From Quinella sp. 2Q5 (lineage in GTDB: Bacteria > Bacillota > Negativicutes > Selenomonadales > Selenomonadaceae): a stretch of 64,000 nucleotides of DNA. A model generated the notes under the pieces. That model did not search any database. It was not told the origin of the DNA and worked only from the letters and a program-made list of their open reading frames with translations. The stretch covers positions 1-64,000 of the forward strand of contig JADEZQ010000006.1 of the NCBI GenBank assembly GCA_015206785.1. Reading direction: 5' to 3'. This document shows positions 7,385 to 61,297 of the stretch, piece after piece. The first letter of the stretch is position 1. Each line of letters starts with the position of its first letter. A program made the position numbers and the translations under genes.

Positions 7385-7954
7385 TTAGAGTTCGCATTGC
7401 ATGAGCACTTCGCCCGTGTCTAGGTCGAAGACTTGAATCTTGTCGTCGGTGATGACTGCGACGCCGGTCTTCTTGTCGGGGCGGTTGCTAAGGTGCGGGC
7501 TGACGGTGCCGGGGTTGAGGAAGACGGTTGAGCCGCGGCGTTCGAGAACTGTTTTGTGGACGTGACCGGTGATGAATATATCCGCGTGCAAGTGAGCCGC
7601 CATACGATCTTTGTCGGCGTCGGTGGGGAGCAGGTGCCCGTGATTGACGACGATTCGTTTGCCGCCCGCGAAGACGTGGCTGTAGGGAACTTGCACAGGC
7701 GTTTCGAGGACGTCGGCGTCAAGTTCGCTGTCGCCGTTGCCGCGGCAGATGACGAAGGGGATCTTGCTGCCGTTGATGAGCTGAACCAATTTTTGCGGGT
7801 TATAATCTTCGCCGCGGAAGTTGGGGTTGCGTGCGCCGTGATTGAGGACGTCGCCCGCGTGCAGAATCAAATCGGCGTCGGCGAAAAATTTTTCCATCGC
7901 CAATGCCACGCGGTCTGCGTAGCCGTGCGTGTCGCTGATAACTCCAATCTTCAT
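7385..7954 (-). CDS. yfcE: YfcE/MJ0936-family metallophosphodiesterase
   Basis: A 189-residue calcineurin-like phosphoesterase. Metal-ligand motifs are in order: VISDTHG near the N-terminus (D, H), HAGDVLNHG (D), CRGNGDSE (N), VNHGHLLP (H), and ITGHVHKTVLER (H, H). The family hydrolyses phosphodiesters in vitro and the natural substrate is not known. ATG 7954 follows GAGGAGG. It is the last gene of the envelope block, 12 bases after bamA. Confidence 0.9.
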   Translation of the reverse strand: MKIGVISDTHGYADRVALAMEKFFADADLILHAGDVLNHGARNPNFRGEDYNPQKLVQLINGSKIPFVICRGNGDSELDADVLETPVQVPYSHVFAGGKRIVVNHGHLLPTDADKDRMAAHLHADIFITGHVHKTVLERRGSTVFLNPGTVSPHLSNRPDKKTGVAVITDDKIQVFDLDTGEVLMQCEL

Positions 7955-7966
7955 GTGATGACCTCC

Positions 7967-9952
7967 TCAGAACGACGTGCCGACGGAGAAATGGAACCTG
8001 CCGCCCTGAGAGCCGCGCCCGTAATCCAGACGCAAAGGTCCCATCGGCGTGTTCAACGCGACGCCAATGCCCACGCTCGCCTTGAAGTTGTGCGGGCTAA
8101 AGCCGCCGTCCCACGCCGTGCCGAAGTCCGTGAACAGCGCACCCTGAATTTTCTTCGCCAGCGGGAAGCGATATTCAATCGAGCCGAGAATCATTCGGTT
8201 GCCGCGGAATTGGTCGTCGCGGTAGCCGCGCAAGGAGCCTTGACCGCCGACGCGAAACTGGTTGAATTCCGTCAAGTCGCCGCGTCCATAGCCGACCATG
8301 CCGCGTATCGCCCAAACCTGATCGTGGTCGCCCGCCCTGCGATAATTTTGGTGGTCGAGCGAAATTTTCTGGAAGTCAAAGTCCCCGCCGAAAGCCCCAA
8401 TCTCCAGCGCGATGTTGACCTTGTTGCCTTCGGTGGGCATGTAAATATTGTCGCGGGTGTCGGTGATATGTTCGAGGATAATTGAGCGCGTGAGCCCGAA
8501 ATTTTTCCTGCGCCAATCGTCGTATGCCGAGCCTTCGCGGTTGCCGGCGTTGCCGCTGGAGACGTGGCGGACGTACTTGTCCTTGCGGTTGCGGAAGGTG
8601 ATGTAGTTGGTGGAATATTCGCTGACGGGTCGGCTGAACGTGAACTCACCGCCCGAATATTTGCGCATGTATTCTTCCTTGAAGTCGCCGTGCGTATCGT
8701 AGTCGTTGTAGGAATACGTGCGGTTGTAAAGCTGGATGCGGAAGGCGGTCTCGTGGCGATCCATCCACGGGTGGCGATAGGTGAAGTTGTAACCATGAGC
8801 GTCGGTCTCGTCGCCGCTCTTTTCGTAGATGACTTGAATCAAGTCGCCGCGCCCGCGGAAATTCGTATCGCTCACTGAAACCATGCCGATGATGCCGTCG
8901 GACGTTGAGTAGCCCGCGCCAATGCCGAAGGTGCCTGTGCGTTTCTCTTTGACGTTGACCTCCATGATGACGGCGTTGGGTTCAATGCCGGGGTTCATCT
9001 TGATGTTGACGTCCTCAAAGAAGCCGAGATTGTAAACGCGTTGCATTGAACGGCGGGCGAGCTTGGCGTTGAACGGCGTGCCTGGCTCTTGACGCATTTC
9101 GCGCAGGATAACCTTGTCCTTGGTCTTCTTGTTGCCCTTGACGGCGTAGCCTTCCAAAATGCCTTCGCTGATCTTGAGCGTGATCACGCCGTCGGCGTCC
9201 ATGTTCATATCGGTGACCTTCATGAGGATAAAGCCTTCGTTGTGATAATCCTCCTGAATCTTGGCGATGTCGTCGTGCAAGGTGTTGCTGTTCAAAATCT
9301 CGCCGCGTTTCATCGTGATGAACTCGTCAAGCTCCTCGTTGGTGTAGAGCGTGTTGCCCGTAAAGACGACGTCCTTGAGTATGGCGTTTTCCATGACGTG
9401 GAAGGTGATAACCACGCCTTCGGGTATAGTCTCGAACGTCTGATAGACTTCGTAGAAGTAGCCCGTGTTCATCAAGGCGTTTCTGTCGCGCAGTGCAGCC
9501 GACGCGCTGAAGGTGTCGCCGACGTTCTCAGTGACCGCCATTTTGACTGTGGGGAGCGTCGCGGGACCCGCGCCTTCGAACTCGATATCGACGATGGTCT
9601 TGCCTTCGAATTGGCGCATGTAATCCAAGAGGACGTAGTCGGTCTGCGAACGATAGGGTTCGGGCGGCGGAGTCTTCGGCTTAGCAGTTTCCGTCGTCGG
9701 TGCAGATGTTTCCGTCGGTGCAGATGTTTCCGTCGGCTTAGATGTTTCCGTCGGCTTAGATGTTTCCGTCGGCTTAGATGTTTCCGTCGGCTTAGATGTT
9801 TCCGTTGTCGGCGTGGAAGTTTCCGTTGAAGTCTCGAATGGTTTGCCGACTTCGGGAGCCGCTTCACCAACACCGAACCCGAATATCACAGGCATCGCCA
9901 TAGCCGCCGCAATCAGTGTTGCACGCCGCCGCGAAATTTTTTTTGCTCTCAA
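7967..9952 (-). CDS. bamA: Outer-membrane protein assembly factor BamA (Omp85 family)
   Basis: About 660 residues: a signal peptide (ATLIAAAMAMPVIFGFGVG), a Thr/Pro/Glu-rich tandem-repeat linker, three POTRA domains (from about YVLLDYMRQFEGKTIVDIEF, AILKDVVFTGNTLYTNEEL, and ILEGYAVKGNKKTKDKVILR), then the 16-strand barrel with the VRGYRD-like lid motif (SLRGYRDDQFRGNRM) and a C-terminal Phe (HFSVGTSF). It inserts beta-barrel proteins into the outer membrane. Start choice: GGAGG at 9961-9965 points to TTG at 9950-9952 (8-base spacing). The upstream in-frame ATG at 9970 lacks a ribosome site and overlaps that GGAGG. It lies just downstream of tamB, as in other diderm Firmicutes. Confidence 0.94.
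   Translation of the reverse strand: MRAKKISRRRATLIAAAMAMPVIFGFGVGEAAPEVGKPFETSTETSTPTTETSKPTETSKPTETSKPTETSKPTETSAPTETSAPTTETAKPKTPPPEPYRSQTDYVLLDYMRQFEGKTIVDIEFEGAGPATLPTVKMAVTENVGDTFSASAALRDRNALMNTGYFYEVYQTFETIPEGVVITFHVMENAILKDVVFTGNTLYTNEELDEFITMKRGEILNSNTLHDDIAKIQEDYHNEGFILMKVTDMNMDADGVITLKISEGILEGYAVKGNKKTKDKVILREMRQEPGTPFNAKLARRSMQRVYNLGFFEDVNIKMNPGIEPNAVIMEVNVKEKRTGTFGIGAGYSTSDGIIGMVSVSDTNFRGRGDLIQVIYEKSGDETDAHGYNFTYRHPWMDRHETAFRIQLYNRTYSYNDYDTHGDFKEEYMRKYSGGEFTFSRPVSEYSTNYITFRNRKDKYVRHVSSGNAGNREGSAYDDWRRKNFGLTRSIILEHITDTRDNIYMPTEGNKVNIALEIGAFGGDFDFQKISLDHQNYRRAGDHDQVWAIRGMVGYGRGDLTEFNQFRVGGQGSLRGYRDDQFRGNRMILGSIEYRFPLAKKIQGALFTDFGTAWDGGFSPHNFKASVGIGVALNTPMGPLRLDYGRGSQGGRFHFSVGTSF
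9705..9806 (-). repeat. 18-bp tandem repeat in the bamA linker
   Basis: Five 18-base units run from 9705 to 9794, followed by a degenerate sixth. They encode alternating KPTETS and APTETS hexapeptides between the BamA signal peptide and POTRA 1. Four units are nearly identical, so copy number probably varies by slippage in steps of six residues without breaking the frame. Confidence 0.93.
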
Positions 9953-48678: not shown

Positions 48679-48707
48679 CAAAAAGAAAGACCCCCGATTC
48701 GGAGGTC
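48679..48707 (-). terminator. Riboswitch-controlled intrinsic terminator upstream of thiC
   Basis: On the minus strand an 8-bp stem, GACCTCCG / CGGGGGTC (48689-48707) with one G-T pair and a 3-base loop, is followed by TTTCTTTTT. It lies between the TPP aptamer and the thiC ribosome site, the usual place for the expression platform. Confidence 0.85.
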
Positions 48708-48719
48708 TTCCCGTGTTGT

Positions 48720-48806
48720 CGTTTTCCTACGTCGGCATTATCCGAATCAGGTGTGCGGGTCGACGTGCTCAACGTCCTCTCAGCCTGTTTGCAAGCTCCC
48801 CGATAT
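48720..48806 (-). ncRNA. TPP riboswitch (thi box)
   Basis: Read on the minus strand: GGGGAGCTTG with CAGGCTGAGA (pyrimidine-binding arm, CTGAGA conserved), then a hairpin arm GGACGT/ACGTC, then ACCTGATTCGGATAATGCCG and ACGTAGGAAAA (pyrophosphate arm). These are the diagnostic blocks of the THI element. TPP binding should favour the terminator at 48679-48707 and shut the thiC-F-S-G-H-tenI operon off. Confidence 0.95.
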
Positions 48807-48894
48807 TCAGTTGCGGTCAACAGTAGTGACCGAGATAGACGGTGAGGCGATTGCGTGCCTCATTATGATCGATCTTCACTTCGCCGCTTTGTGT

Positions 48895-48999
48895 CTACAG
48901 ATAATACTTGTCGTCATAGGTCTGTTCGTGAACACCGCCCACCACGTTTTCAAGTTGATCTTCGGTGAGCTGTTCGCTGACAATTTTTTCTTCTGCCAT
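48895..48999 (-). CDS. Double-glycine leader peptide 1 (short form)
   Basis: 34 residues: leader MAEEKIVSEQLTEDQLENVVGG and a 12-residue remainder VHEQTYDDKYYL. The leader has the LTxxxLxxVxGG pattern of bacteriocin-type peptides cut and exported by C39-peptidase ABC transporters. ATG 48997-48999 follows AAGGAGA. The gene duplicates the neighbour at 49086, whose first residues after the GG are the same (HEQTYDD). The frame after its TAG (48895-48897) stays open for 25 further codons (to 48817), so this may be a shortened copy. No transporter or immunity gene is visible. Confidence 0.72.
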   Translation of the reverse strand: MAEEKIVSEQLTEDQLENVVGGVHEQTYDDKYYL

Positions 49000-49085
49000 G
49001 ATTGTAGTCTCCTTGCTGCCGACTGAAACCTTCGGATTCATTATACGCCGGCTGTCAAGTTTCGTTGCCGCCGCGGAAAATTTTT

Positions 49086-49385
49086 TCAGTGACGGCGAAC
49101 GTAGTCGCACAGGATATCAAAGGCCTCTCCGTGGCCGATGTATTTGCGCCGGTAGTTGTCGTAGTAGGTGTTGTCGTGCCTTTCGCTGGTGTCGAGCTTG
49201 ATGCCCGCGCGGTTATACATCTCGCCGAGCTGCCCGACGGCTCTGTCCCAATTCTGCGGCCACTGAACGCCGTAGCGTCTGTACAGGCGATCCATGTCGT
49301 CATAGGTCTGTTCGTGAGTGCCGCCCGCCACGTTTTCAAGCTGCTCTTCGGTGAGCTGTTCGCTGATAATTTTTTCGTCTGCCAT
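49086..49385 (-). CDS. Double-glycine leader peptide 2 (long form)
   Basis: 99 residues: leader MADEKIISEQLTEEQLENVAGG (22 residues), then a 77-residue polar core rich in Tyr, Arg and Asp with one Cys (THEQTYDDMDRLYRRYGVQ at its start, ending CDYVRRH). ATG 49383-49385 follows AAGGAGA. Leader, ribosome site and an upstream stretch (ACGAAACTTG...CGTATAA) are shared with peptide 1. The core has no hydrophobic run like a class II bacteriocin, so it may be another kind of exported peptide or a substrate for modification enzymes. Confidence 0.75.
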   Translation of the reverse strand: MADEKIISEQLTEEQLENVAGGTHEQTYDDMDRLYRRYGVQWPQNWDRAVGQLGEMYNRAGIKLDTSERHDNTYYDNYRRKYIGHGEAFDILCDYVRRH

Positions 49386-52062: not shown

Positions 52063-52086
52063 ACCACTTCTGCTTGACCGCCGCGC

Positions 52087-52250
52087 TCGTCACCCGTTGA
52101 AGTCAGCGATAACACGGCCGCCCATGGACGGGCGGCCGCCGGCATACGACGTCGTGATGCGTCGTTGCCGGCTCGGAGGTCCTTTCTTTTGCTACTTTTC
52201 TTTGGACCGGCAAAGAAAAGTAGATCTAAACGCAAACGCAGTGAGCAGAC
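52087..52250. repeat. Multi-hairpin intergenic element, copy R2
   Basis: Three adjacent inverted repeats: GGCCGCCC/GGGCGGCC (52116-52137), GCCGGCA...TGCCGGC (52138-52172), and the 13-bp perfect stem CTACTTTTCTTTG (52192-52204) / CAAAGAAAAGTAG (52211-52223). Its tail ATCTAAACGCAAACGCAGTG is the reverse complement of the head of R3, so R2 and R3 are in opposite orientation. It fills the radA-ybaK gap. Confidence 0.92.
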
Positions 52251-52302
52251 ATGACGACATAACGACAGCCGCCGCGTGAAAAATCCTGAGGAGGAGATAA
52301 TT

Positions 52303-53814: not shown

Positions 53815-53946
53815 TTGCTCACTGCGTTTGCGTTTAGATCTACTTTCTTTTGCTGGTCCAAAAGAAAGTAGCAAAGAAAAGGACCTTCAGCCGGCAACGA
53901 CGCATCACGTCGTCGTATGCCGGCGGCCGCCCATCCTTGGGCGGCC
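53815..53946. repeat. Multi-hairpin intergenic element, copy R3
   Basis: In the opposite orientation to R2: the 13-bp stem CTACTTTCTTTTG (53840-53852) / CAAAAGAAAGTAG (53859-53871), then GCCGGCA...TGCCGGC, then GGCCGCCC/GGGCGGCC (53925-53946). It lies between the SRP RNA and dnaX. Confidence 0.92.
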
Positions 53947-56558: not shown

Positions 56559-56715
56559 GCCGCAGACAGCGGCGGGTCTTACTTTTCTTTGCTGGTCCAA
56601 AGAAAAGTAAGCAAAAGAAAGGACCTCCGAGCCGGCAACGACGCATCACGTCGTCGTATGCCGGCGACCGCCCATCCTTGGGCGGTCGTGTTGTCGGCTA
56701 AGATGACGGGTGCGT
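56559..56715. repeat. Multi-hairpin intergenic element, copy R4
   Basis: The left end GCCGCAGACAGCGGCGGG is followed by the 13-bp stem TTACTTTTCTTTG (56579-56591) / CAAAGAAAAGTAA (56598-56610), then the GCCGGC and GACCGCCC/GGGCGGTC repeats, and the GTTGTCGGCTAAGATGACGG right end. With the deleted copy it fills the 325-base recR-aminotransferase gap; no gene is seen there. Confidence 0.93.
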
Positions 56716-61134: not shown

Positions 61135-61291
61135 GCCGCAGACAGCGGCGGGTCTTACTTTTCTTTGCGGGTCCAAAGAAAAGTAAGCAAAAGAAAGGAC
61201 CTCCGAGCCGGCAACGACGCATCACGTCGTCGTATGCCGGCGGCCGCCCGTCCATGGGCGGCCGGGTTGTCAGCTAAGGAGACGGGTGACG
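61135..61291. repeat. Multi-hairpin intergenic element, copy R5
   Basis: Nearly identical to R4: the 24-base left end, the 13-bp stem TTACTTTTCTTTG (61155-61167) / CAAAGAAAAGTAA (61174-61186), the GCCGGC and GGCCGCCC/GGGCGGCC repeats, and the right end GTTGTCAGCTAAGGAGACGG. It fills the gap between convergent genes and ends 6 bases before the lonB stop. Confidence 0.94.
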
Positions 61292-61297
61292 AAAGCG

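Follow-up and report, generated by a model that had tools for sequence, protein, structure and literature searches.

The window, a stretch of 64,000 nucleotides from the genome assembly of Quinella sp. 2Q5 (1.82 Mb, 42 contigs, 79% complete), contains two neighbouring small genes, pepA and pepB. Upstream of pepA, on the opposite strand, lies rng, whose translation reads as ribonuclease G-like; past pepB, thi-like genes follow beyond a TPP riboswitch (Table 1).

Table 1. Features of the pepA/pepB locus in the window.
Feature	Position	Strand	Description
pepA	49086-49385	-	ATG start, 99 aa; 22-residue double-glycine leader (49320-49385) and 77-residue core
pepB	48895-48999	-	ATG start, 34 aa; leader and 12 residues after GG
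pepA promoter, GTAACGAAACTTGCCGCCCGTCGTATAA	49429-49456	-	ECF type; -35 GTAAC, 16 nt, -10 CGTATAA; exact pattern match
pepB promoter, GCAACGAAACTTGACAGCCGGCGTATAA	49041-49068	-	GCAAC-N16-CGTATAA; exact pattern match
TPP riboswitch upstream of thi-like genes	48707-48812	-	RF00059, 59.1 bits; about 83 nt past the pepB stop

As the original prediction stated, the genes form a tandem pair with a common 22-residue leader (MADEKIISEQLTEEQLENVAGG in pepA, MAEEKIVSEQLTEDQLENVVGG in pepB), followed in both by HEQTYDD and preceded in both by a G-rich ribosome site, and the 77-residue core of pepA is Tyr-rich, with nine Tyr and a single Cys. The upstream block ending in CGTATAA is also present before both genes, but it is larger than had been noted: together with the bases before it, it constitutes a full ECF-type promoter. 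A sigma-70 reading of this block was dropped, as its GTAAC and CGTATAA boxes are 16 nt apart and vary with the sigma clade.

In the ORF list, pepB is part of a 71-aa frame starting with GTG. The two proteins are similar (E=2.7e-11), and the DNA of the genes is alike from approximately position -95 to approximately codon 31, with no likeness beyond; the pepB stop lies four codons past the end of this likeness. Since the likeness is lost near codon 31, pepB is probably a truncated tandem copy of pepA and not the equal partner that it was taken for, although its promoter and leader are intact and ORFs with short cores are also known elsewhere. No immunity gene was found beside the window genes in the gaps between pepA and pepB (approximately 86 nt) and between pepB and the riboswitch.

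The leader of pepA has V19 (-4), L16 (-7), L11 (-12) and G21-G22, and the same residues occur in pepB. In the available part of the LahT150 study, V-4, L-7 and L-12 are leader residues in the groove of the C39 domain (PMC6363468), in agreement with the C39-directing role proposed for this leader. The leader is short and appears suited to C39 recognition; cleavage after GG and export are predicted. The bacteriocin leader model TIGR01847 is only just reached by pepB (15.8 bits, cut-off 15.7, E=0.016), and pepA is not among its matches. With the NHLP leader model TIGR03793 pepA scores 14.1 bits, below the cut-off of 50.9, and the best Nif11 leader score among seven relatives is 19.8, below the cut-off of 32.3.

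In a comparison of five stretches of the same genome we also observed a dispersed intergenic repeat, found in the window at 52081-52300, 53816-53946, 56580-56696 and 61156-61292 and on other contigs at L039 2644-2817 and L041 1499-1669; the pieces of 117-178 bases are 89-93% identical to the copy at 52081.

Promoters, sigma factor and exporter

The pair had been described as a possible orphan system. This description no longer holds, because the leader and the promoter are common to other family members and to the leading ORF of an exporter. Further peptides with the same leader, which the original prediction had proposed to look for, are encoded in the same genome on contigs C19 (two) and C36, and one more double-glycine ORF, on C42, was found via its promoter. 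The motif GTAAC-N16-CGTATAA precedes pepA and its relatives, and the genome has twelve exact GYAAY-N16-CGTATAA sites versus two in the reversed control. Six sites are upstream of double-glycine ORFs (C14 and C19, twice each, C36 and C42). Another lies before an ORF of 141 aa that resembles the leaders (with NRVNGS where NVAGG is expected) and stands immediately ahead of the C7 export operon. A further site, on C36, shares bases with the stop codon of an ECF sigma gene and is followed by a small ORF, and one, on C15, has no clear gene.

The remaining three sites, on C11 (L045), C17 (L049) and C41 (L054), are located before small ORFs with apparent Sec signals. Envelope proteins may accordingly be part of the regulon in addition to the double-glycine peptides; going by the reversed control, two sites are to be expected anyway.

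Among 32 family members selected on protein similarity (33 loci, no leader ORF being parsed in L031), 23 have an exact promoter of type A, B or C upstream, compared with 6 of 6400 shuffled upstream stretches. As the motif was partly read from the same loci, genome-wide promoter counts provide a stronger test. The sigma gene on C36 is of the ECF type (TIGR02937, 127 bits, cut-off 42.9), and a close homologue (E<1e-80) is present in 27 of the 66 genomes examined from the genus. Five or more GTAAC sites were found in 26 of these 27 genomes versus 6 of the 39 others (Fisher test, 1.5e-11), p values here overstating independence as the genomes are related. In five genomes (G005, G014, G016, G021 and G101, 60-98% complete) GTAAC sites number 10-20, but the search at E<=1e-20 gave no homologue of the sigma factor; G012 has the sigma factor and one site.

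Two further promoter types occur in the genus. TTAAY-N16-CGTATAA has 4-29 sites each in G002, G019, G023, G026, G034, G051 and G099, all seven with a clade B sigma factor; G011 has six such sites and its detected sigma factor belongs to another clade, and none of the 58 others has more than one site. GTCAT-N16-CATATA has 17-24 sites in G013, G033 and G057 and three in G038, all four with a clade C sigma factor, and at most three in any of the other 62. In the sigma tree (43 rows), support is modest for clade B (85/78) and 99/93 for clade C. As read from the 66 genomes, the promoter type (GTAAC, TTAAY or GTCAT) tracks the sigma clade, with exceptions. Immediately past the sigma gene, a matching promoter is present in 17 of the 21 loci of clade A and in one of the four of clade C; in two of four scanned clade-B loci it precedes the small ORF and the sigma gene. 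These observations suggest that the promoters would be transcribed with this sigma factor.

The genome check proposed for a C39-peptidase transporter with a HlyD partner found both, and a transporter distant from the pair, as had been supposed, is encoded by an NHLM-type export operon on C7. It consists of genes for a periplasmic adaptor, an NHLM HlyD protein, an NHLM ABC1 protein with a C39 peptidase domain, an NHLM ABC2 protein and a TolC-like protein, all but the last scoring above NCBIfam cut-offs (for ABC1, 975 bits with TIGR03796, whose cut-off is 853.3). ABC1 contains the Cys and His/Asp stretches typical of a C39 domain, including the residues that we take to be catalytic. Inspection of ORF starts and a scan of five ORFs in the 19.5 kb around this exporter revealed no recognisable modification enzyme.

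The C39 family PF03412 has four matches in the genome. Contig C23 (L040) carries two HlyB-type, C39-like ABC genes (TIGR01846) on either side of a HlyD-like ORF; more ORFs follow downstream in the same orientation, and the whole reads as a second type I export locus. This pair is a less likely exporter than the NHLM operon, as no promoter shared with a leader ORF was found there. The match on C40 belongs to no NCBIfam family and was set aside.

A full-length NHLM ABC1 gene is present in 46 of the 66 genomes of the genus, several of which have extra NHLM copies. At least five type-A or -C sites, type B being left out of this test, were found in 28 of these 46 genomes versus 7 of the 20 others (p=0.065, a weak association). 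The association with at least three peptides is moderate (30 of 41 versus 7 of 19, p=0.010; 60 genomes). Sigma factor and exporter are unlinked in the genome studied here. Among 60 sigma homologues, 22 have an NHLM ABC1 gene at most 9 kb away, a partial one in two cases. In sister genera, ABC1, sigma factor, small ORF and double-glycine peptides occur together in 5 of 13 loci, chosen for sigma or peptide matches there, and in four of eight genomes; two of the five loci form one run on one strand.

The ORF that adjoins the sigma gene encodes approximately 60-100 residues and has no NCBIfam family (three examples scanned). It is represented by 37 distinct sequences, 36 of them in a fetched locus with a sigma homologue, a co-occurrence that is partly by design, many loci having been fetched for sigma. 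A motif like DFSxFSKVKxSLL is followed by the ending LxxxELDxVAAAG, compared with LxxxELDxVA-GG in the exported peptides. Of the 35 sequences that could be parsed, 34 have AA at the GG position and one has AG; a GG appears two residues later in one of the parsed and both of the unparsed sequences. One speculative and rather improbable reading is that the small ORF is an anti-sigma factor based on a double-glycine leader whose cutting site is disabled. It would vie with real leaders for docking on the C39 domain and in this way sense whether the exporter is present, busy or idle. These sequences would also suit an ordinary exported peptide with a cut at AA or AG. Secretion is coupled to transcription in the case of FlgM; if the anti-sigma reading is true, the small ORF would be a FlgM-like coupling for a peptide exporter. 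The leader-like ORF beside the sigma gene suggests one way, open to test, in which a cell could match expression to export.

Distribution and divergence of the peptide family

Quinella sp. 1Q7 has a relative of pepA with 52% identity, syntenic beside rng (L005), the sole match in one contig scan, and the same protein occurs in G044 of the same genus. Downstream of this relative (L005, ~7890-8140) there is a short tandem repeat, readable as repeated FTACEDVARFM.

The family profile A1 was built from 51 members; GG and position -7 are nearly invariant in it, partly due to the choice of ORFs with such a motif, a GG-like motif having been required for ORF collection. At a genome threshold of E<=1e-4, A1 matches 90 of 380 genomes of the class, of which 48 belong to the genus (66 genomes in all) and 42 to other genera; the matches fall into 12 of 102 genera, all from one bacterial family. 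Copy numbers per genome are lower bounds, as scoring covered no more than about 12 candidates in each. Neither Pfam nor NCBIfam nor PHROGs contains a family that the pepA core matches above cut-off, and the A1 search of Pfam, NCBIfam, PHROGs and PDB sequences found no relative of the core, yielding weak matches mostly over the leader, the best from PDB being the Nif11 protein 9zn4_A (E=0.15, over the leader).

Cores are mostly 74-104 residues long; among 100 collected double-glycine ORFs, 18 have cores of less than 60 residues and 61 have Cys in the core. The 82 long members (core of at least 60 residues) have a C-terminal half with the pattern G...N-x-Y...G..I.R.EA, conserved at 98% (G), 96% (N), 99% (Y) and 93% (second G). 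The conserved G...N-x-Y...G part suggests a folded domain.

Upstream regions and leaders are more constant than cores within the family. For three tandem arrays in G044, median identity is 86-89% in the 100 bases before the start, and identity is 84-92% in the leaders and 58-80% in two core stretches. Over A1, the mean pairwise identity is 0.56 for leaders, a value raised a little by the use of GG as a selection criterion, and 0.24 for cores. The syntenic pair of pepA and its 1Q7 relative shows no such leader advantage (11 of 22 leader and 40 of 77 core residues identical), and the view of a constant leader therefore depends on the paralogues and on the profile of the family. The pepA core evolves faster than the neighbouring rng: in the comparison with L005, dN is 0.46 and dS 0.72 for the core, while for rng they are 0.19 and 0.97. 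Members of the three arrays are separated by 139-237 nt, which therefore leaves no room for an immunity gene between them.

Proposed mechanism and comparison with known systems

These data probably describe a large, fast-changing family of exported peptides in a group of rumen and related bacteria, apparently under a common genetic switch and served by a common export machine. The ECF sigma factor encoded on C36 would read the GTAAC-N16-CGTATAA promoters of a dispersed regulon including pepA (and pepB, if still functional), and would switch on the scattered double-glycine precursors, the leader-like first ORF of the C7 operon and the small ORF beside the sigma gene itself. In the NHLM ABC transporter, the C39 domain would bind the leader helix through V-4, L-7 and L-12 and cut after GG; together with the HlyD and TolC-like proteins, the pump would release the 77-residue core, apparently unmodified, outside the cell. 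We consider it likely that pepA is a member of such an ECF-sigma-driven, C39-cleaved and NHLM-exported regulon. The role of the cores is the weakest step: competition of a microcin-like kind, suggested by repeated duplication with diverging cores, is our leading guess, held with slightly less than even confidence.

Somewhat less probable is that the exported cores serve as signals or in other interactions, such as adhesion or contact with the host or protozoa, and are not weapons. An immunity gene fits neither beside the window genes nor between the array members, and the charged, Tyr-rich pepA core and the pattern of a possible folded domain also agree with such roles; however, signals rarely come as many divergent members per genome, and the faster change of the pepA core relative to rng argues against a signal. 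That the double-glycine motif is no export leader and the proteins stay inside the cell is very unlikely. The window genes do stand alone, and export and cleavage are predicted from sequence only, but the leader pattern fits C39 recognition and the peptides share loci with NHLM C39 transporters in sister genera.

We also regard it as unlikely that the peptides are RiPP precursors of the NHLP/Nif11 kind, with cores modified before export. The conserved leader, the variable cores and the frequent Cys would fit, as would the exporter families TIGR03794, TIGR03796 and TIGR03797, tied to NHLP precursors in the available text of PMC2887384; against this, both leader models score below cut-off, the cores are long and the surroundings of the C7 exporter contain no recognised modification enzyme. 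A comparably small chance is given to another regulator reading the shared promoter, the ECF sigma factor being a passenger. The five genomes with numerous GTAAC sites and no detected sigma factor, and G011 with TTAAY sites and no detected clade-B sigma, are what a passenger would produce, but three promoter types follow three sigma clades, and a matching promoter adjoins the sigma gene in most clade-A loci, half of the scanned clade-B loci and one clade-C locus.

The system of ECF sigma factor, shared promoter and NHLM exporter resembles several known ones in part. Class II microcins and bacteriocins are exported by C39 transporters with HlyD and TolC-like partners and have an immunity gene beside the peptide gene. 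As far as the consulted sources describe them, they share with the present system the double-glycine leader, the C39 ABC exporter and the HlyD and TolC-like partners; unlike them, it has no immunity gene in the window or the arrays, a soluble charged core and a dispersed, sigma-linked regulon. The three NHLM cluster families named above all score above cut-off in this genome, and the portion of PMC2887384 available describes NHLP/Nif11 precursors with conserved leaders and variable cores, sometimes in large numbers, as here. However, the leaders here are short and below model cut-offs, no modification enzyme is recognised near the exporter, and the present system also has an ECF sigma factor, a shared promoter and a small ORF resembling the leader. 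As its genes read, the system falls outside the NHLP/Nif11 leader definition and lacks the immunity-gene feature of bacteriocins.

Prochlorosins likewise comprise many double-glycine precursors per genome with conserved leaders and diverse cores (excerpts of PMC10783134 and PMC6363468), but are lanthipeptides made by one synthetase, whereas the present cores are mostly in the range given above and no synthetase was recognised. In the microbisporicin cluster, the accessible sections of PMC4973701 describe MibX/MibW, where an ECF sigma factor drives exported-peptide genes via GAACC-N15-GCTAC promoters. Control of an exported peptide by ECF promoters would be common to both systems. MibX/MibW are encoded in a single compact cluster of an actinomycete, which includes a membrane anti-sigma factor (PMC4973701, same sections), unlike the many scattered promoters found here and the small ORF, with no recognised membrane anti-sigma factor, beside the sigma gene. 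No paper on this system was found among the open-licence PMC papers within reach of our search, and a term search of the retrievable text of the Quinella genome paper (PMC9585023) found no mention of "bacteriocin", "sigma factor" or "double-glycine".

The apparent orphan pair would thus be part of a defined system in a mostly uncultured rumen genus and its relatives, comprising a single sigma switch, a single type of exporter and as many as about thirty matching promoters per genome before rapidly changing, probably secreted proteins. Promoter and leader together provide a search rule for the entire set, which would be relevant to rumen ecology if the cores act on neighbours.

Double-glycine ORFs of another kind were seen near the NHLM loci of G047 and G037 (L114 9338-10447 and L119 ~1500-1700); their cores are very basic or Lys/Arg-rich, unlike the pepA type.
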